Of a DNA stretch of 30,012 nucleotides, positions 5,525 to 29,909 are shown one piece after another. The DNA lies in the IMG/VR virus record IMGVR_UViG_3300032309_001713, positions 1 to 30,012 of that record, one strand, 5' to 3'. Numbering within the stretch: position 1 is the stretch's first letter; each line of letters starts with the position of its first letter. The notes under the pieces were generated by a model. That model was not told where the DNA came from. It was given only the letters and a program-made list of their open reading frames with translations, and made no database searches. The stretch comes from a virus. A program made the translations under genes and the position numbers.

Positions 5525-5573
5525 TTTGTGCGTGTTTGTTTGGTTTTCTTTGGCGTTATTACCTTTGAAATTA
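5525..5573 (-). promoter_or_regulatory. A/C-rich leader shared with the major capsid gene
   Basis: Read on the minus strand, the leader runs from the stop codon of the previous gene through ACTAATTTCA, AATAACGCCA and AACCAAACAAAC to the ATG at 5524. The same three blocks, in the same order and nearly the same spacing, precede the major capsid gene at 24430-24472. No Shine-Dalgarno lies near the start. A translation-initiation or regulatory leader is inferred. Confidence 0.55.
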
Positions 5574-6104
5574 GTGTTTCCGACTGAGTTGCACCGCCGA
5601 GTAGGTGGCGCGGCTACCTTCCGACTTCCTGAACTTCGTGATCGAGAGACCGAGCACATCGGCCCATCCGACCACGTAGTGAGAGATCAGGGCGCGGGTG
5701 CATCCCAGATCCCGAGCGATCTCCGCCTGAGACCGCTTCCCGTTGAGTTGGTCCAGCCCGGCGGCGAAGGCCAGAGCGTGAACCTGAGCCGCCAGATTCT
5801 TGGCACCCAGCAGCAGACCGATTACACGGCCCAGCATCTCCCAAGCCTGACCGGCCAGATTCTTTCTCTCCCTCTCCCGAACCGTCAGACCCCACTGCCC
5901 GGCACAGGCGATCACCTCGCGCATCACCAGCCAGTCGATCTGCATCTTCGAGGGGGGGATGTTCTTCTGGACGAACCAGAAGAACTCCTCTGCCAACTCA
6001 TCACCCTCCCCGTCGATCTCGGCGGCATAGTCGGGCGTGTAGGCCGACTCAGCCGTGTCATTGCTATAGGCGCGGAACGCCTCCTGGGGAGATGCGGAGA
6101 TCAT
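5571..6104 (-). CDS. HTH-containing phage protein (177 aa)
   Basis: From ATG 6102-6104 this encodes 177 residues. A helix-turn-helix is visible near residues 128-158: SQAEIARDLGCTRALISHYV reads like a typical recognition-helix arrangement, followed by GWADVLGL. The N-terminal part is acidic and rich in aromatic residues (ELAEEFFWFVQ). The central part is long and helical. It could be a transcription or replication regulator acting on the early operon or the origin repeats. The start overlaps the upstream stop as ATGA; a longer frame exists but overlaps the preceding gene. The target is unknown. Confidence 0.68.
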   Translation of the reverse strand: MISASPQEAFRAYSNDTAESAYTPDYAAEIDGEGDELAEEFFWFVQKNIPPSKMQIDWLVMREVIACAGQWGLTVRERERKNLAGQAWEMLGRVIGLLLGAKNLAAQVHALAFAAGLDQLNGKRSQAEIARDLGCTRALISHYVVGWADVLGLSITKFRKSEGSRATYSAVQLSRKH

Positions 6105-6364
6105 GCCTTTTTCAGAGACTCCAGTTTGAGCATCCGCTGACGCCGTGCCCGGGCCGCCTCGATGCACCACATCACATCATCAGGGAACTCGATCCCGGCG
6201 ACCGCCAGCACCCGATCCGCAGCCACCACCGACTCGTGGCAGCAGTCGCAGAGTTCCCATGGGAAGACTTGCTCTCCACCGTCCTCGAGGGGAGTCCCGT
6301 GAACCCACTTAGCCTGAGTTAGGCAACCGGGCATCACGCAGATGCCGAGATTGGTGGCATTCAT
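6101..6364 (-). CDS. Small cysteine-rich, probable zinc-binding protein (87 aa)
   Basis: From ATG 6362-6364 this encodes 87 residues. Cysteines at 9, 14, 39, 41 and 42 with H43 (ICVMPGC, then ELCDCCHE) suggest one zinc site, followed by an acidic-to-basic helix (CIEAARARRQRMLKLESLKK). The start overlaps the upstream microprotein stop as ATGA, and the stop overlaps the next start in the same way. I do not know the family. Treble-clef-like early phage proteins often bind host factors or DNA, but that is only suggestive here. Confidence 0.66.
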   Translation of the reverse strand: MNATNLGICVMPGCLTQAKWVHGTPLEDGGEQVFPWELCDCCHESVVAADRVLAVAGIEFPDDVMWCIEAARARRQRMLKLESLKKA

Positions 6365-6453
6365 CGTCCACCTCCCGACTTCCAGAGATTCCAGAGCAGG
6401 GCCGAGGCCGTGACCGCCAGCAGCACTTGGTAGAAGGGAGTGCAGTCCTTCAT
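6361..6453 (-). CDS. Membrane microprotein (30 aa)
   Basis: This frame was found by translating the gap between two coupled genes. The 30-residue product begins MKDCTPFYQ, has one hydrophobic stretch (VLLAVTASALLWNLW, about residues 10-24), and ends KSGGGR. A Shine-Dalgarno GGGAGG lies about six bases before the ATG. Both ends overlap neighbours by ATGA. The features suggest a genuine single-pass membrane peptide of unknown role. Confidence 0.62.
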   Translation of the reverse strand: MKDCTPFYQVLLAVTASALLWNLWKSGGGR

Positions 6454-6566
6454 TTTGACCTCCCTTGGAGGCGGAACTTCGGAGCCAGATGGAGCAACTG
6501 CTCCACGAAGGCGGCGACGAACTCCTCACGGGTCGCGTAGAAGTCGAAGTGAAGCTGAGTGCTCAT
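6450..6566 (-). CDS. Early microprotein (38 aa)
   Basis: The product of 38 residues begins MSTQLHFDFYATREE and ends FRLQGRSK, with an amphipathic helix in the middle (FVAAFVEQLLHLA). It couples by ATGA overlap to the 61-residue gene upstream and to the membrane microprotein downstream. The unbroken chain of overlaps is the main support. No function can be assigned. Confidence 0.62.
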   Translation of the reverse strand: MSTQLHFDFYATREEFVAAFVEQLLHLAPKFRLQGRSK

Positions 6567-6748
6567 TTGCCCCCCTTTACCTTTAGGTTCTTCTCCACCC
6601 GCATGTATTCGCGCCAGAGGGTTGCCTTCACAGCCGCCTCATACCCAGTGATGCGCTTATACCAAGCCCAGATCCGAGCCCAGAACCCGACCGGCTTCTG
6701 GAACTGCCGAGCATAGGCGAGAGCCGCCTCGAGAGTGGGATCGCTCAC
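6563..6748 (-). CDS. Basic aromatic microprotein (61 aa)
   Basis: The 61-residue product starts at GTG 6746-6748, overlapping the upstream stop as GTGA. It contains a tryptophan- and tyrosine-rich segment (VGFWARIWAWYKRITGYE) and a lysine-rich tail (EKNLKVKGGK). The aromatic segment could be an amphipathic membrane-associated helix. A GGGAGG sequence lies about seven bases before the start. The family is not recognised. Confidence 0.64.
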   Translation of the reverse strand: MSDPTLEAALAYARQFQKPVGFWARIWAWYKRITGYEAAVKATLWREYMRVEKNLKVKGGK

Positions 6749-6855
6749 TTGGCACCTCCCGTGAAACGGGCAATCAGCCCGGCAAGGATCTCAGCCAACT
6801 CCCGACGCCCCATAAAGAGGACGACCGTCCCCACAGCAAAAAGCAGGGCGATCAC
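6745..6855 (-). CDS. Membrane microprotein (36 aa)
   Basis: This 36-residue frame starts at GTG 6853-6855 with GGAGG six bases upstream. It has an N-terminal hydrophobic segment (IALLFAVGTVVLFMG, residues 2-16) followed by RRELAEILAGLIARF. It overlaps its neighbours by GTGA on both sides. It is probably a single-pass membrane peptide. The role is unknown. Confidence 0.62.
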   Translation of the reverse strand: MIALLFAVGTVVLFMGRRELAEILAGLIARFTGGAK

Positions 6856-7025
6856 AGGGCACCTCCTTCAGCTTGCAAGAGAAGTGTGATTCCTGCACAC
6901 TGCCCCCTGAAATCGACGGCCTCAATAGCACGAATTGTGAAACTCGTGTGAAACAGGTCACGATTTACAGAGTAAATCACTGCCCTGTGGTGTAACGGTA
7001 ATTTGGATTTTGGTGTTTTTTTCAT
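6852..7025 (-). CDS. First gene of the early operon, small protein (57 aa)
   Basis: This 57-residue frame runs from ATG 7023-7025 to a TGA that overlaps the next GTG start. It begins with a basic tail (MKKTPKSKLPLHHR) and continues with IRAIEAVDFRGQCAG and ITLLLQAEGG, which look like strand and helix. No Shine-Dalgarno is visible (AGTAGAAACC precedes the ATG), so it may use SD-independent initiation. It would be the first gene transcribed leftward from the divergent control region. The family is not recognised; coupling to the next gene is the best support. Confidence 0.6.
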   Translation of the reverse strand: MKKTPKSKLPLHHRAVIYSVNRDLFHTSFTIRAIEAVDFRGQCAGITLLLQAEGGAL

Positions 7026-7100
7026 GGTTTCTACTCTGTTAGGCTGACTTCTGCGCGGTTAAATTCCTTGTGTCATGTGAAACTGTGTGAAACTTTTCAC
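6937..7100. promoter_or_regulatory. Tandem GTGAAAC sites flanking the divergent early/integrase starts
   Basis: GTGAAAC occurs as a pair at 6937-6943 and 6948-6954 and as a second pair at 7077-7083 and 7087-7093, each pair about one helical turn apart. The last copy continues into TTTTCAC, making the palindrome GTGAAA-CT-TTTCAC at 7087-7100 just before the integrase ATG. The pairs bracket the start of the early operon. They could be operators for a ribbon-helix-helix repressor or integrase arm sites. Transcription starts were not identified. Confidence 0.5.
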
Positions 7101-7102
7101 GC

Positions 7103-8203
7103 ATGGCGTTCTTGGTTCGCAAAAAGCGATCCCCGTTCTGGTATGTGCGCTACCGGGATCTGGAGACCCAGCGTTGGCGCGATGAGAATCTGAAGCTGCG
7201 CGCCGACTGCCCGAAGGACTCGGCGAAGGCCGTGAAGGAGGCGGCGCGGCGAGGCTCCCAAGAGGCCATCGTCAGACCGAACAGGGGAGGGGATTTCGTC
7301 GAGTGGGTTCCCGACTACATCACCGCCCACTACAAGAACCCCCGCACTCTCCTGCGATCCCGATACTTCTGGAGCACTGTCCATGTCTTCCTGCACGAGC
7401 AGGGGATCCGCATGCCGAGCGAGGTCACCTACAAGCATGCCCAAGCCTACCTCGACTGGAGGAAGGGGGCAGGAGGCGAACACGCCAGCCACAACACCGC
7501 CCGTGCCGAGTTGAAATTCCTCAGCTTCCTCATGAGCGAGGCGATCCGGCGAGGGCTGGCCGAGACGAACGGCCTCGCCCTGGCACGAGTCCCGATGACC
7601 CCCCCGAAGGAGAAGCGCGAGATCACCCTCCCCGAGATCACTGCGGTGAGGCAGGCCCTGCGCGACCAGCCCGGATGGATGGCCACCGCCTTCGAGCTTC
7701 AGCTTCACCTCGGATGCCGCTTCTCCGAGACCCGCATTCCCATGGATCGGATCGACCTCAAGAGCGCGACCATCCAGATCCGTGATGCGAAGCGGCAGGA
7801 GGGAGATGCTAGGAAGTGGTTCAGCGCACCGATCAATGACCAGCTTGCCAGCTTCCTGAAGGGCATCACCCCGCACGACGGCCATACCCTGCCCGAGATC
7901 GAGCGGACGATGAACCGCGACTTCAACCGGGTGCTGGGCCGGGCGGCTAATGGATTGACGAGTCATTGTCTGCGGGTCTCCTTTATTTCACGGCTCCATC
8001 GAGCCGGGCTCTCCGAGAGCGAAGCGATGCGACTGGTGAATCACTCGACGAGGATGGTCCACCGGCTCTACTCGAAGCTGAACGTCGAGGACGCACGGCT
8101 CGCGATGAAGCGGGTGCCGCTGCCCCCGCCTCCGCCGCCAAAAAAGCGCGCACCCACCGCAGGGTCGTCTTCTTCCCGAAAAAAGGGCACCCGCGCCGCT
8201 TGA
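7103..8203 (+). CDS. int: Tyrosine recombinase (phage integrase)
   Basis: This 366-residue protein keeps the tyrosine-recombinase signature. Box I is LGCRFSE with R206, a catalytic lysine is probably in RDAKRQEGDARK (residues 228-238), box II reads SHCLRVSF with H288 and R291, then NHST with H314 and the nucleophile Y323 in RLYSK. Residues 1-60 would bind arm-type sites and 65-165 form the core-binding SAM-like domain. The C-terminus ends in a proline- and lysine-rich tail (PLPPPPPPKKRAP) that looks added. Its last 221 bases overlap a convergent excisionase-like gene. It should integrate and excise the phage; no attP was located with confidence. Confidence 0.93.
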   Translation: MAFLVRKKRSPFWYVRYRDLETQRWRDENLKLRADCPKDSAKAVKEAARRGSQEAIVRPNRGGDFVEWVPDYITAHYKNPRTLLRSRYFWSTVHVFLHEQGIRMPSEVTYKHAQAYLDWRKGAGGEHASHNTARAELKFLSFLMSEAIRRGLAETNGLALARVPMTPPKEKREITLPEITAVRQALRDQPGWMATAFELQLHLGCRFSETRIPMDRIDLKSATIQIRDAKRQEGDARKWFSAPINDQLASFLKGITPHDGHTLPEIERTMNRDFNRVLGRAANGLTSHCLRVSFISRLHRAGLSESEAMRLVNHSTRMVHRLYSKLNVEDARLAMKRVPLPPPPPPKKRAPTAGSSSSRKKGTRAA

Positions 8204-8300
8204 GGGAGGAGAGTTCCGTCGGGCTCATCCCGACGAGTTCTGCCAAATGGCAGGGGAACTCCAGACGGTCGAGGTCGATCATCGCGGTGGTGGATGTCAT
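7983..8300 (-). CDS. Excisionase-like small DNA-binding protein
   Basis: The first 60 of 105 residues look like a small winged-helix/excisionase protein: HLAELVGMSPTELSSLKRRG, then CPFFGKKTTLRWVRAFLAAE. The remainder is low-complexity Ser/Arg/Ala sequence translated from the antisense of the integrase 3' end. The ATG lies three bases after the stop of the upstream ribbon-helix-helix gene, so the two are probably cotranscribed toward the integrase. The family is inferred from the helix-turn-helix and wing pattern and from position. The overlapping tail may be functionless extension, or the true 3' end may have been lost. Confidence 0.55.
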   Translation of the reverse strand: MTSTTAMIDLDRLEFPCHLAELVGMSPTELSSLKRRGCPFFGKKTTLRWVRAFLAAEAGAAAPASSRAVRPRRSASSRAGGPSSSSDSPVASLRSRRARLDGAVK

Positions 8301-8303
8301 GGG

Positions 8304-8501
8304 TCAGGAAACGGCTTGATCGGCGGGTTCGAGGTCTTCGTGCAGGAGATCGATGGCATCCTCGACTTTTCCGAGTCCGGCAGTGATGGCCTGCCTCAGG
8401 ATCGCAGCCTCGCTGATTCCTGTTTTTTCCTTCAGCGCCTCGGAACGGGCCGCAATGGCGCTTGGAAGCTTGATGTAGAAGGTTTTTGCTTCGGTGGTCA
8501 T
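8304..8501 (-). CDS. Ribbon-helix-helix regulator candidate
   Basis: From ATG 8499-8501 this encodes 65 residues: an N-terminal strand (KTFYIKLPSA), then two helices (RSEALKEKTG and SEAAILRQAITAGLGKVEDA). This is the Arc/CopG ribbon-helix-helix plan. It resembles the protein encoded at 8591-8836, especially in R(Q/M)AITAG(L/I). A longer frame from TTG 8568-8570 also exists. It is divergent from its paralogue and precedes the excisionase-like gene, so a role in the lysogeny switch is plausible. Confidence 0.62.
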   Translation of the reverse strand: MTTEAKTFYIKLPSAIAARSEALKEKTGISEAAILRQAITAGLGKVEDAIDLLHEDLEPADQAVS

Positions 8502-8590
8502 GTGTCTTGTCTGGTAGTGTTTTGGCTTAGATCGTAGTTTGTGGCAAGAAAAAATTGGAAATTCTTTCAAAAAAGATGAAGTGTCAAAAT
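8502..8590. promoter_or_regulatory. Shared control region between divergent RHH genes
   Basis: This 89-base AT-rich spacer separates two head-to-head ribbon-helix-helix genes. On the minus strand it contains TTGACA (8582-8587), and 17 bases downstream a weak -10-like GAATTT, which would drive the leftward gene. A short inverted A/T element (TTTCAAAAAAGATGAA) lies in the middle. Autoregulation by either protein is likely, but no operator could be fixed by eye. Confidence 0.38.
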
Positions 8591-8836
8591 ATGGAAAAAG
8601 AAATCACCAAGACAGTAAGGCTGAAGTGGCCCATTCATGAGCGGATCACCGCTTTGGCCAAACGCGCAGGCACCGACCATTCCTCCATTATGAGAATGGC
8701 AATAACAGCAGGGATTCCACTGGTGGAACGCCACATGGAAGCCTTGTTTCAAGAATCAGCTACTTACCCCATCCCCGAAATCACCGCACTCCATGCGGCT
8801 GAGGAACCGAAAAAATCAAGGAAGCAGTTATTTTAA
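8591..8836 (+). CDS. Ribbon-helix-helix regulator candidate, paralogue of the divergent gene
   Basis: From ATG 8591-8593 this encodes 81 residues. The N-terminal strand KTVRLKWP is followed by helices ERITALAKRAG and SSIMRMAITAGIPLVERH, a ribbon-helix-helix arrangement. The C-terminal 35 residues have no clear fold and end in a basic KKSRKQLF. An upstream in-frame ATG at 8576 would add five residues. With its divergent relative it forms the only regulator pair seen near the integrase, since no CI-like repressor is evident. Confidence 0.62.
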   Translation: MEKEITKTVRLKWPIHERITALAKRAGTDHSSIMRMAITAGIPLVERHMEALFQESATYPIPEITALHAAEEPKKSRKQLF

Positions 8837-8877
8837 GCTTTCCCCACGGGCTACCTTTGTAGAACAAATGCCCTCTC

Positions 8878-9192
8878 ATGAATAGCGTTTTGTTCCTAGG
8901 GGCGGCGGCTTCTACCAGTGCTCAGGCTGGAGTTTTCACAGGGATGCTCGGGGCGGGATTGTTCATGGCCATGGTTTGCTTGATCGGGGGGATCTTACTT
9001 TTTGTCTTCCCATTCATCGTCATGCTCCAGCTTGCCTGGCTGAACACGAAGCTGAAGGCCATCACGGATCAGCATGCCCGTGAATCCACGAATAATCTCC
9101 AGTGGTCGATGACTCTGATGACCGAACTCAAGACTCAGAACGCACTCACCCGCCAGCTTCTCAGGGCCTACGGCCACGAGCCGGAAGCCTAA
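8878..9192 (+). CDS. Membrane protein with cytoplasmic coiled-coil tail (104 aa)
   Basis: Residues 20-57 are strongly hydrophobic (FTGMLGAGLFMAMVCLIGGI, then LLFVFPFIVMLQLAWL) and could form one long or two short membrane spans. Residues 58-98 form a polar helix (LNTKLKAITDQHARES, MTLMTELKTQNALTRQLL). The protein could be a superinfection-exclusion or other lysogenic-conversion factor, but nothing specific supports that. It is convergent with, and overlaps by four bases, the HExxH gene downstream. Confidence 0.6.
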   Translation: MNSVLFLGAAASTSAQAGVFTGMLGAGLFMAMVCLIGGILLFVFPFIVMLQLAWLNTKLKAITDQHARESTNNLQWSMTLMTELKTQNALTRQLLRAYGHEPEA

Positions 9193-9440
9193 AACTCGAC
9201 GCGCCGGTAGCCGTCCTTCCAGAGTAAGTCTGTCAGGCGCGAGGCGTAGGCTCTCACCATCATCTCGCTGGCTTCGGGAATCAATAGGTGCAGTGCCTCA
9301 TGGATCTTCGTGTCCAGGGCTTCTTTTGCAGAAGGATGCTTGGGATCGACCACTACTTCGTCCGGGGCAATGGCCAGCCCATGAGCCCCTTCTCGACCGA
9401 GGCTTCGGTAGGTGAGCTTCAGTCGGCGGGGGAGCTTCAT
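9189..9440 (-). CDS. Minimal HExxH metallopeptidase-like protein (83 aa)
   Basis: From ATG 9438-9440 this encodes 83 residues. The sequence KIHEALHLLIPEASE holds a zinc-metalloprotease motif H47-E48-x-x-H51, with E56 or E59 as a possible third ligand. The N-terminus (MKLPRRLKLTYRSLG) is basic, and a strand-like IAPDEVVVDP precedes the motif, as in very small SprT/ImmA-type phage proteins. Proteolytic activity is not proven and the domain is minimal. An array of GGCTGAA heptamers lies between its start and the upstream gene. Confidence 0.6.
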   Translation of the reverse strand: MKLPRRLKLTYRSLGREGAHGLAIAPDEVVVDPKHPSAKEALDTKIHEALHLLIPEASEMMVRAYASRLTDLLWKDGYRRVEF

Positions 9441-11332: not shown

Positions 11333-11527
11333 ATGAAAACGACAGTCCTCCTCTACAAAAAAGATACTTCTCGCTCATTCATGGAGCTTCCCTGGTGGAT
11401 GTCCACATACAAGGGAGACACAATACCAGTGAAGGGTTTTGAAACGGCAAAAGCCGCCAGAGCTTACGCAAAATCAAAAAAATGGTCAGTTCTCCGCTCC
11501 CCTGGTTGTGATGAACACGGGTCGTAA
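11333..11527 (+). CDS. Small rightward protein of unknown function (64 aa)
   Basis: The 64-residue product contains VLLYKKDTSRSFMELPWWMS, FETAKAARAYAKSKKW and a C-terminal CDEHGS. It is basic and probably soluble. The ATG follows an A/C-rich leader (ACAACGAAAACAACGATACA) with no Shine-Dalgarno. It is followed after one base by the next rightward gene. I recognise no family. It is transcribed against the late operon, as lysogenic or early genes often are. Confidence 0.58.
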   Translation: MKTTVLLYKKDTSRSFMELPWWMSTYKGDTIPVKGFETAKAARAYAKSKKWSVLRSPGCDEHGS

Positions 11528-11528
11528 A

Positions 11529-11708
11529 ATGACTAGCGCCGTAAAACGTGGACGGCCTCCTCTCCCTGCCGGGGAGGGGGCTGCGTCACACCTCCATGTG
11601 AGGGTGAGCCGAGAGCAGAAAGCCGCTTATGTCCGGGCGGCGGTGAAGCAGGAGAAGAAGCTTTCTGAATGGGTGACTAGTCAGCTTGACCGCGCCGCTG
11701 GACGCTAG
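11529..11708 (+). CDS. Small DNA-binding protein candidate (59 aa)
   Basis: From ATG 11529-11531 this encodes 59 residues. The N-terminus KRGRPPLP is an AT-hook-like motif. It is followed by a strand (ASHLHVRVS) and two helices (REQKAAYVRAAVKQ and LSEWVTSQLDRAA), the order seen in ribbon-helix-helix proteins. The last four bases overlap the convergent endolysin gene. It could regulate the divergent gene pair at 11174/11333. Confidence 0.55.
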   Translation: MTSAVKRGRPPLPAGEGAASHLHVRVSREQKAAYVRAAVKQEKKLSEWVTSQLDRAAGR

Positions 11709-27142: not shown

Positions 27143-27218
27143 TGGCACAGCCCCTCGGAATCGAACCGAGCCAGATGGTTTTGGAGACCTTCTCGCCAGC
27201 CTTGGAACATTGGACTGC
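27143..27218 (-). tRNA. tRNA-Trp(CCA)-like gene, D-arm degenerate
   Basis: On the minus strand a 76-base segment ends in CCA. The acceptor strands GCAGTCC and GGGCTGT pair over seven positions, two of them G-U. The T-arm CTCGG-TTCGATT-CCGAG is perfect. The anticodon loop CTCCAAA, flanked by GGT and ACC, gives anticodon CCA (Trp). The D-arm pairs poorly and position 8 is A instead of U. It could be a working phage tRNA with a weak D-arm, or a decaying copy. It fills the gap between the gpW-like and portal genes. Confidence 0.6.
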
Positions 27219-27546: not shown

Positions 27547-29289
27547 TCACAACTTCCCTTTCAGGATAGCCCATGCCACGCAGTGGAGCTTGGTGCAGTC
27601 GCCGAAGTGGTCGTTCTCGATGTTCTTAAACTGGTAGGGGGTTGCCCTGTTGTTCCTGTTCTCCACCAGCACCTGTCCGCTGTGCCCGGCAATGAAGTCG
27701 CGCGAGGCGTCGGCAGGAAAGTGAAGCAGCGGAGGCAGCCGCTTCTGGATCCTGTCGATATACAGGTGCATCTTCCAAATGTGGTCGGAGTAGCTATAGA
27801 GAATGGTGCCGACTCCAGGAAGCGGACTGGCGTTGAAGTTCTTAAACGTGGCGGCCCCTCCCTTGCTCGGGTAGAAGAGCCCGGACGACCTTGCACAGAC
27901 GGCATACACTCTCTCCGTGAAGTAGCCGCTGTCCAGTAACCCTGCGATTGGTGAGACCTTGGTCTCCCCATCAGGAAGGAGATATGTCCTGGCATTGAGA
28001 AAATCCTCCCTCACGAGGTCGTCCACTTCAGCGACCTCTCCCCAATCGATCACCCAACTCTCGCCGGTTCCTATCCTTGCTTCGACTGTCCAGTGGGTGC
28101 GTGATGCTCCGGGATCGGCGCAAAGTGTCAGGATGGGCGGCTGGCCATCGATCACCGCAGCCTCGGGAATCTCCCTCTGCCGGTAGCCGCCACGCAAATC
28201 AAGCAGGCTCTCGTCCTTGATGGTCGTGGCCCGATCCTGCCACGGGATCCCAAGGTAGGTGTTGTGAAAATCATGGAGGCCGCCGGGGGTGGAGGACTTC
28301 TGAAGGAAGAGCACTGCCATATCTCCCCAACTCAGAGTCGGGGAATACATCGAGGAGATGTGAGCGGAACGGTGATCCATCGGTGCGCTAGGATTCCCGG
28401 CGACCCACCGGTCGGAATCCGCCGCGTCCTTGATGAGTCCGCGTTTGAGATCCTGCCCCCACAGGTCGCCGCATTCCTCGCACTGGTAGCAGGCGTTCTC
28501 GCGCACACTGTCCAAATCCCATCCCGCCTCACAATTAAGATCAGGTGACCATCGGACTTGCTCAAACTTTAGCCATTGGCCCCATCCGCAGGACGGACAT
28601 GCGATGTGGAGGCGATGCTGACTGCCAGCCATGAATTGGCTGTAAATGGCCCCAGTCTCCACCGTGGGTGTCGATGCCAGGACAATTTTGCTGATGTTGC
28701 GGTACTGGATGGTACGCGCCATCGCCAACTCCAGCGCCGGGGCCTCAGTAGCCGTACTGTCCGGCCACTTGTCAACCTCATCGCAGTAGAGGTAGCGGAC
28801 TGGACGACTCGCCAAATTGCTCTGGCTGTTAGACCCGATAAGCTTGAGGGTGCAATTTTTGAACTGCATCTCGGTCTTCTTGAACTGGTCAGGATCATCA
28901 GGAAGCAACCCCCGTAGCGCAGAGCATGATTTAATTCGAGGGATCAGTTCCCGCTCGCTCCAACTCTTTGCATTCTCCCCGGTGCTGGTGACGTAGAGCA
29001 TGGGGCCGGGGTCTTCAGCGATGGAGTATTGAATCAGATTCGCCAGCAGGGTGGTTCCGCCGACTTGGGCCGACTTAACCAAGGTGATCTGGCGGATCGA
29101 GCGGTCACCATACCACTCATGGAGCTTCCGAAGGTATGGGGTGAAATCGCACGAGAATCGCCCAGGACGCGGCGAGAAGCGTGAATCTAGCGTGATGTGC
29201 TCCTCGGCCCATTCGAGAGGTTGCTGCCTTTTACGGGGCTTCCACAGCCCTTCCAGATCCTGACCGATCCCGACCAGTGCCGCCGTCAT
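27547..29289 (-). CDS. Terminase large subunit, lambda gpA family (580 aa)
   Basis: The 580-residue protein has the gpA-type layout. The ATPase domain shows Walker A SAQVGGTT (residues 73-80) and Walker B RYLYCDE (D170, E171), with the coupling segment VLASTPTVETGAIY near 203-216. A zinc-binding insertion follows (CPSCGWG at 231-237, CYQCEECGDLW at 267-277), as in other gpA proteins. The C-terminal nuclease domain contains LTLCADPGASRTHW, AGLLDSGYFT and FGDCTKLH. It would cut concatemers and drive packaging. The start overlaps the small-subunit stop as ATGA. Confidence 0.92.
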   Translation of the reverse strand: MTAALVGIGQDLEGLWKPRKRQQPLEWAEEHITLDSRFSPRPGRFSCDFTPYLRKLHEWYGDRSIRQITLVKSAQVGGTTLLANLIQYSIAEDPGPMLYVTSTGENAKSWSERELIPRIKSCSALRGLLPDDPDQFKKTEMQFKNCTLKLIGSNSQSNLASRPVRYLYCDEVDKWPDSTATEAPALELAMARTIQYRNISKIVLASTPTVETGAIYSQFMAGSQHRLHIACPSCGWGQWLKFEQVRWSPDLNCEAGWDLDSVRENACYQCEECGDLWGQDLKRGLIKDAADSDRWVAGNPSAPMDHRSAHISSMYSPTLSWGDMAVLFLQKSSTPGGLHDFHNTYLGIPWQDRATTIKDESLLDLRGGYRQREIPEAAVIDGQPPILTLCADPGASRTHWTVEARIGTGESWVIDWGEVAEVDDLVREDFLNARTYLLPDGETKVSPIAGLLDSGYFTERVYAVCARSSGLFYPSKGGAATFKNFNASPLPGVGTILYSYSDHIWKMHLYIDRIQKRLPPLLHFPADASRDFIAGHSGQVLVENRNNRATPYQFKNIENDHFGDCTKLHCVAWAILKGKL

Positions 29290-29909
29290 GACTGCTGGCT
29301 GATCGGATTTTCACCCGCGCCCTGTGATGATGATGTTTTTGAAGACCATGGAGCAGATCCTGCCGCTACCGAAATCTCTCTCAGGATCGCCTCCACCTCG
29401 AACCGGACGATGCCGCTCACATCCATGGTGCTATCGAGACGGGCTGAAAGTACGTCTGGAAGGTTTTCGATCTGCTGCTTCACCAGGGCAAGGTTTGTAC
29501 TGATCCACTCTCGGACAGTTTCAGCTTTCACAAGCTGTCCGGTCTGGACATCGAGCTCGGCATTGCGGGCCTGCGCTTCAACGAGGAGCTTGTGGCAGTC
29601 GTTTGCGGCCTTGTTCACCTGAATGAGTGCCGAGAGATCACCTCGTTCAAGAAGCTGGTCGGCGCTGGCGCTCAGGCGGGCCAGCCGGATCGCGGCAGCC
29701 TCCTCAACCTGACGAGCCGTAAGCACCTGGGCGGTGCCTTGAATGAGACTCATCTGGCTTACCGACTCCGATGCGGCAGCCCGGCGGCGCAGAAATTCTA
29801 TCCACCGGCTGTCTCCCTTCTGTCTCCATATCTGGACGGCCCTGACTTGAAGACCATGCTCATCAGCACAAGCCTTGATCAGATGTGATTCGTTTCGCGA
29901 AGTAGCCAT
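29286..29909 (-). CDS. Terminase small subunit candidate (207 aa)
   Basis: The 207-residue protein starts with a helix-turn-helix-like region (SHLIKACADEHGLQVRAVQI) followed by WRQKGDSRWIEFLRRRAAA. A central helical part (LARLSASADQLLERGDLSAL, KAANDCHKLLVEAQARNAEL) follows. It directly precedes the large subunit, with which it overlaps by four bases. It should recognise the packaging site, which is probably in the adjoining 29910-30012 segment. TTTGACA lies 16 bases before its ATG. Confidence 0.75.
   Translation of the reverse strand: MATSRNESHLIKACADEHGLQVRAVQIWRQKGDSRWIEFLRRRAAASESVSQMSLIQGTAQVLTARQVEEAAAIRLARLSASADQLLERGDLSALIQVNKAANDCHKLLVEAQARNAELDVQTGQLVKAETVREWISTNLALVKQQIENLPDVLSARLDSTMDVSGIVRFEVEAILREISVAAGSAPWSSKTSSSQGAGENPISQQS

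Follow-up and report, generated by a model that had tools for sequence, protein, structure and literature searches.

In phages lambda and P2, the repressor pairs CI/Cro and C/Cox are encoded divergently and repress each other; these proteins have helix-turn-helix (HTH) folds, and an excisionase-like gene lies on the lytic side. A layout closer to the one described here is found in the immI region of phage P22, where two paralogous ribbon-helix-helix (RHH) repressors are encoded head to head, separated by a 90-bp gap that contains both operators (NC_002371). Mnt and Arc control the antirepressor gene ant, and the main switch of this phage is c2/cro. According to the accessible text of one report, Arc has its role during lytic growth and Mnt during lysogeny (PMC7549136).

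Other RHH proteins have been connected with the lysogenic state. The accessible part of a study on the archaeal virus SSV1 presents F55 as a lone RHH protein, likened to lambda CI, that maintains lysogeny; tandem repeats lie before several early promoters, and that text does not describe a paralogous divergent partner (PMC5569661). In SPbeta, the RHH protein YosL is linked to induction in the available text of PMC10516654. Within what the open-licence literature makes accessible, no RHH-only switch was found for a bacterial phage.

In this work, we describe a pair of small divergent genes in the virus record IMGVR_UViG_3300032309_001713, a record of 30,012 bases, classed linear, which was analysed at its full length (the window). 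The replication genes (a primase with Toprim and a polymerase/primase-like protein) and the packaging and lysis genes (small terminase-like, TerL and endolysin) are on the minus strand, and the plus strand carries the integrase, RHH2, a small membrane-like gene and a TacA-like gene. The last of these, at 11439-11708, is a third RHH-like gene of TacA type (E 0.0035), with a relative only in L008 (66%) among the loci searched (L numbers denote the loci and contigs compared). The best match of TerL is Akkermansia phage Moulinsart (32.6%), from which we guess at a host in the Verrucomicrobiota; a literature search on repressors of Akkermansia phages returned nothing pertinent.

The divergent gene pair and its predicted fold

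The features of the region are as follows:
5571-6170, minus strand: 199-aa protein of the leftward replication region, with a sub-threshold HTH match; competing candidate for the repressor
7103-8203, plus strand: tyrosine integrase (phrog_1, E 2e-35; PF00589 over cut-off)
7983-8300, minus strand: winged-helix/HTH-like open reading frame (ORF), 3 nt after RHH1 and antisense to the 3' end of int
8304-8501, minus strand: RHH1, 65 aa from ATG, type A; first gene of the leftward transcript
8502-8590, no strand: putative divergent promoter/operator gap, 89 bp between start codons
8591-8836, plus strand: RHH2, 81 aa from ATG, type A; subtype common to L004
8878-9192, plus strand: small membrane-protein-like gene downstream of RHH2, replaced by other genes in some relatives

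It had been predicted from the sequence that two small related genes diverge here, 89 bases apart and adjoining the integrase, and that they share the motif R(Q/M)AITAG(L/I). The motif is present, as RQAITAGL and RMAITAGI, and the coordinates agree with the predicted layout. The two proteins are 37% identical across 51 aligned residues, with an E value of 2e-8 that applies to this single comparison. RHH1 and RHH2 are a paralogous divergent gene pair.

Family scores of the single sequences are weak. Against a curated Pfam RHH_1 cut-off of 20.5 bits, RHH1 reaches 19.7 bits (E 8e-4) and RHH2 12.6 bits (E 0.14), and similarities to a RelB-like NCBIfam model (2.7e-5 and 7e-4) are both below cut-off. 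The RHH assignment is strengthened by related sequences, since a scan of the related records gave 21 RHH_1 matches in 13 of 22 records (above cut-off in 5), all of which were assigned to the pair by the contig ranges of the loci. A profile search of PDB chains with RHH1 matched VapB26, CopG and Arc, and the type-A profile matched a CopG-family regulator (5e-5); the same kind of search with the type-B RHH2 alignment A6 returned chance proteasome matches only.

The strand-helix-helix plan originally read from the letters was borne out by structure prediction. Single-chain AlphaFold models have an extended, strand-like N-terminus followed by two helices, at residues 14-27 and 31-54 in RHH1 (pLDDT 83) and at 13-26 and 30-57 in RHH2 (pLDDT 72). 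On structural rescoring, RHH chains rank best: the top rows are mostly ParD, MazE-like proteins, TacA, PutA, CopG, NikR and Arc, at Z values of 4-6.5, and some unrelated helical proteins appear further down the lists. Such modest Z values are typical for a fold of 45 residues. A Foldseek search with both models gave nothing at E 0.001 or better, which is also usual for folds of this size. AvtR (4hv0) scored a Z of only 2.2 for RHH1 and does not figure in the 50 RHH2 rows; a likeness of either protein to it is nonetheless possible. The models and matches support an RHH fold (MetJ/Arc superfamily) for RHH1 and RHH2.

Distribution of the pair and exchange of the cassette

Searches of a virus collection with RHH2, RHH1, integrase, the winged-helix protein and RHH1 alignments yielded 21 further contigs with the pair (21 of the 22 rows were taken into A7 and 20 of the 22 into A8). 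The divergent RHH pair lies beside the integrase in 22 of the 22 contigs compared, window included, with the proviso that contigs found through RHH1 carry it by construction and are informative for RHH2 and layout only. The integrase-led search, which does not presuppose the pair, recovered it in 10 of 11 loci. The exception, L017, is outside the 22, as is L028, which matches the winged-helix alignment over a short stretch at 46%. At 6225-7328, L017 encodes an integrase 51% identical to that of the window, with a winged-helix homologue alongside and no RHH pair seen adjacent. The intergenic gap measures 89-102 bp in 21 of the 22 contigs and 152 bp in L050. RHH1 and RHH2 had no match among isolated phages, and relatives were not found when bacterial genome contigs were scanned with the integrase and with RHH1.

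The pairs fall into two types: type A (n = 6) comprises the window and L004-L008, and type B (n = 16) comprises L009-L016, L036, L038, L039, L043, L044, L046, L047 and L050. Mixed pairs are absent from the 22 contigs. Mean core scores between RHH1 and RHH2 are 72.9 for A-A and 60.6 for B-B, against 30.6 for A-B and 30.2 for B-A; same-position proteins score 29.6 between types, both for RHH1 and for RHH2. By hhalign, RHH1A and RHH2A reach 97.6%, RHH1B and RHH2B 97.2%, and RHH1A and RHH1B 7.7%. The hhalign value for RHH2A and RHH2B, 97.8%, is at odds with their core-only score of 29.6, and for that reason we attribute it to the common C-terminal tail. In these sequence comparisons, partners within one type are more alike than members at the same position across types.

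The boundaries of this divergence are visible in the DNA when the window is compared with type-B relatives whose integrases are 90-95% identical. Similarity ends at 8302-8312, at the RHH1 stop codon, and restarts at 8777 within the RHH2 tail; this right-hand similarity is absent in L013 and L014. Two segments are delimited in this way:
8313-8776, no strand: exchanged cassette, where DNA similarity to type-B relatives is undetectable and the flanks are similar
8777-8899, plus strand: conserved right flank, with the RHH2 C-terminal tail (EITALxAAEEPKKSR) and the leader to the next gene

The leader, at 8837-8870, contains a conserved element (TTTTatCCTTTCCCGACGG...TTTGTAgaACaAAT) that is common to different RHH and integrase types.

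Within type A, L007 is a hybrid with its junction inside RHH1. The 5' half, which encodes the DNA-reading strand (KTLSIKLP), is L005-like, and the 3' half is window-like. L007 and L005 belong to one RHH2 class, and so the 5' half of RHH1 follows the RHH2 subtype. Distances of RHH1 and RHH2 are correlated across 18 of the 22 contigs (Mantel r 0.83, p 1e-4; L010, L013, L036 and L044 left out) and within type B alone (r 0.36, p 0.001; 12 contigs).

The integrase follows a different pattern. A window-like integrase accompanies both type A (window, L004, L007, L008) and type B (L009-L016), and an L006-like integrase likewise occurs with A (L006) and B (L036, L038, L039, L043, L044, L046, L047); L005 combines a third integrase with a type A pair. 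The identity of the winged-helix protein broadly follows the integrase. Because both RHH types occur with different integrase types, we regard int with the winged-helix gene, and the RHH pair, as separately travelling modules. Between phages, RHH1 and RHH2 travel together in one cassette that is independent of int and the winged-helix gene.

Candidate operators and the putative attachment site

The gap of the window itself gives little signal. Repeats and inverted repeats in it are no better than in shuffled sequences (89 and 11 of 100 shuffles, respectively, reach the observed value; these tests used 17 of the 22 contigs), and a scan of 6700-9300 for sigma-70-like promoters found none. Comparison among type-A gaps points to two blocks:
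8514-8522, plus strand: GTAGTGTTT block, conserved in all type-A gaps but one (5 of 6); candidate element of an operator or promoter, below significance when the window is taken by itself
8582-8588, plus strand: TGTCAAA block, in all 6 type-A gaps, immediately upstream of the RHH2 ATG

The type-B gaps are more telling. With the near-duplicates L010, L013, L016, L036 and L044 left out, the remaining 11 of the 16 gaps contain 20 TTGN4ACA sites, compared with a mean of 1.4 and a maximum of 7 in 1000 shuffles. The sites are mostly mirror-placed, about 8-9 bp ahead of each start codon, and TACATTG occurs 10 times, against 0.2, at 5-7 nt ahead of the RHH2 start. The site centre varies with a residue of the RHH2 strand: Q goes with GTAT in L011, L012 and L013, L with ATAT in L043 and L044, and R with GC-richer centres. 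L011, for example, has a pair of TTGGTATACA sites in its gap. Exact TTGN4ACA sites are absent in L047 (strand residue Q) and L015 (R). In a search of whole records that covered 9 of the 16 type-B records, TTGRTATACA occurred in exactly two copies, confined to the gap, in L011, L012, L013, L043 and L044, and in zero copies in the other four. Being present twice, between the pair only, in five whole records, these sites seem to serve the switch exclusively. Type-B gaps thus hold a mirror-placed, operator-like pair of sites to which binding is putative.

Leaderless mRNA was considered as a trait of the pair and discarded. A Shine-Dalgarno-like sequence precedes 4 of 22 RHH1 genes and 3 of 22 RHH2 genes, and, of the window's other listed genes, only 9 of 31 (for two of the 31, the start point is not on a start codon). 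Such sequences are scarce before these genes too, so leaderlessness is not specific to the pair.

Operators had originally been sought in pairs of GTGAAAC repeats, which are absent from the gap at 8502-8590 and are found upstream of int:
6936-6955, plus strand: tandem TGTGAAAC pair, GTGAAAC at 6937 and 6948; probable integrase arm-type sites
6983-7001, plus strand: conserved core CCCTGTGGTGTAACGGTAA, between the tandem pairs; probable attP core
7076-7094, plus strand: second tandem TGTGAAAC pair, GTGAAAC at 7077 and 7087; probable integrase arm-type sites

The repeats, in the form GTGAAAC or GTGGAAC, hold their position in relatives with other RHH types; in L017, the sequence around the core CCCTGTGGTGTAACGGTAA differs and the core itself is kept. 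Since the repeats flank the core and persist across RHH types, and since the core has other flanks in L017, we read them as attP arm sites. They stay with int and attP rather than with the RHH type, and this part of the original prediction was not supported: judged by sequence, a role as arm sites for the integrase, on both sides of attP, is more likely for the GTGAAAC pairs than one as operators.

The core CCCTGTGGTGTAACGGTAA presumably resembles the 5' end of a tRNA; an Rfam search of the attP region returned no tRNA, only sub-threshold chance matches. Elsewhere in the window, a tRNA-Trp-like gene with a CCA anticodon lies at 27143-27218 on the minus strand, between the TerL and portal genes, and L013 also carries one, at 218-292. 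The accessible text of PMC10865867 describes tRNA-dependent lysogeny, which is possibly relevant to the tRNA-Trp-like gene and the tRNA-derived-looking attP core.

The proposed switch, its alternatives and known systems

We consider it probable that this group of temperate phages has, in the RHH pair and its gap, its switch for lysis-lysogeny and immunity. The model is backed by the RHH paralogy, the divergent arrangement, the conservation of the pair, its coupled exchange, its independence from int and the type-B repeats. We infer for the pair DNA binding, mutual repression, an immunity function and a role in lysogeny. Each RHH protein would dimerise and read DNA through its paired N-terminal strands, binding gap operators beside two divergent promoters; by repressing each other's promoter, RHH1 and RHH2 would give rise to bistability, as CI and Cro do. 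The lytic side would be the leftward one, in which transcription starting with RHH1 continues into the winged-helix gene, runs antisense to int and heads for the replication genes, and the lysogenic side would be the rightward one, with RHH2 and the accessory gene. From gene order, strand and neighbours, we lean towards a Cro-like (lytic) RHH1 and a CI-like (lysogenic) RHH2. More tentative, and possible rather than probable, is the broader proposal that the whole group of temperate tailed phages governs lysis-lysogeny and superinfection immunity by two RHH repressors and two private operators alone, so that a swap of about 0.5 kb changes the immunity type. In this broader scheme, integration would also sever the leftward RHH1 transcript from replication, because attP separates int from the replication genes.

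An unlikely alternative, though the best placed, is a secondary switch of the P22 immI kind. The pair would then run a side circuit of the accessory gene and the winged-helix gene, and lysogeny would be kept by a main repressor that went unrecognised, for instance the protein of 5571-6170 or the product of a gene outside the contig. P22 provides the precedent, with mnt/arc head to head and c2/cro elsewhere, and the 199-aa HTH protein has a homologue in 14 of the 21 relatives' loci searched; it could be a regulator or repressor. Against this, scans of Pfam, PHROGs and NCBIfam gave nothing Ant-like for the genes flanking the pair. The claim that no CI/Cro-type repressor is visible elsewhere also stood: HTH_3 is over cut-off in 0 of 22 records and S24 matches in 0 of 22, in records that are metagenomic and possibly incomplete, and may therefore lack a repressor that the phage has; in control genomes HTH_3 responds in 14 of 14 and S24 in 11 of 14. 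Weak HTH_3 matches in 9 records appear to be homologues of the 199-aa protein. That protein is encoded on the replication strand and does not follow the exchanged cassette, because the window (A) and L013 (B) agree completely in its HTH segment, and L007 (A) has a variant in common with L009/L010 (B). The variants of this protein swap independently of the RHH cassette.

Less credible still, and in our view quite improbable, is that the pair sets only the direction of recombination, through the balance of an excisionase-like winged-helix gene and the integrase, and does not encode immunity repressors. In 21 of the 22 contigs the winged-helix ORF does follow RHH1 on the same strand, with a spacing of -4 to +27 nt, and in the contigs compared its overlap with the convergent int, at the 3' end of the latter, measures 77-311 nt; by position, it may be excisionase/Cox-like. 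The RHH module nevertheless recombines independently of the int/winged-helix module, and a fast turnover of types is what one would expect from immunity, not from recombination control.

In the window, the 3' end of int and the winged-helix frame overlap on opposite strands over 221 nt (7983-8203), and both are conserved in relatives. The winged-helix ORF has weak similarity to a Nu1-type terminase-small family (phrog_57, E 6.7e-7 in L005); an assignment as small terminase subunit was rejected in view of a separate small-terminase-like gene at 29286-29909.

That the RHH genes are antitoxin or plasmid-type (CopG/partition) cargo is highly improbable. In favour of it are weak NCBIfam similarities to RelB-like antitoxins and ORF56 copy control, all below cut-off; against it, the scanned neighbours gave no toxin-family or notable PADLOC defence match, no partition gene was seen, an integrase and an attP-like site are present, and position and divergent layout are fixed in 22 contigs.

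If the pair acts as the proposed switch, pair type and operator core may allow immunity groups of uncultured phages to be predicted from sequence, and the natural cassette swaps, together with the hybrid L007, offer ready tests of how strand residues and operators match.

Among known systems, CopG, the plasmid regulator Reg576 and RelB-ParD are alike in fold and DNA-reading strand, by sequence or structure matches, but they serve in copy control, plasmid regulation and antitoxin roles and are not divergent phage pairs. Lambda and P2 share with this locus the divergent arrangement and the excisionase-like gene on the proposed lytic side; unlike their HTH repressors, both proteins here are RHH and paralogous, and an S24 domain was not found. 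The likeness to P22 immI is closest, with differences in setting: no ant was found after RHH1 (7983-8300) or RHH2 (8878-9192), c2/cro is not recognisable, and the pair adjoins the winged-helix and integrase genes, is swapped as a cassette and is apparently the main switch. Divergent RHH repressors are thus already known from P22, as a secondary circuit; if the pair described here is the only switch, the logic of CI and Cro can be built on another fold.
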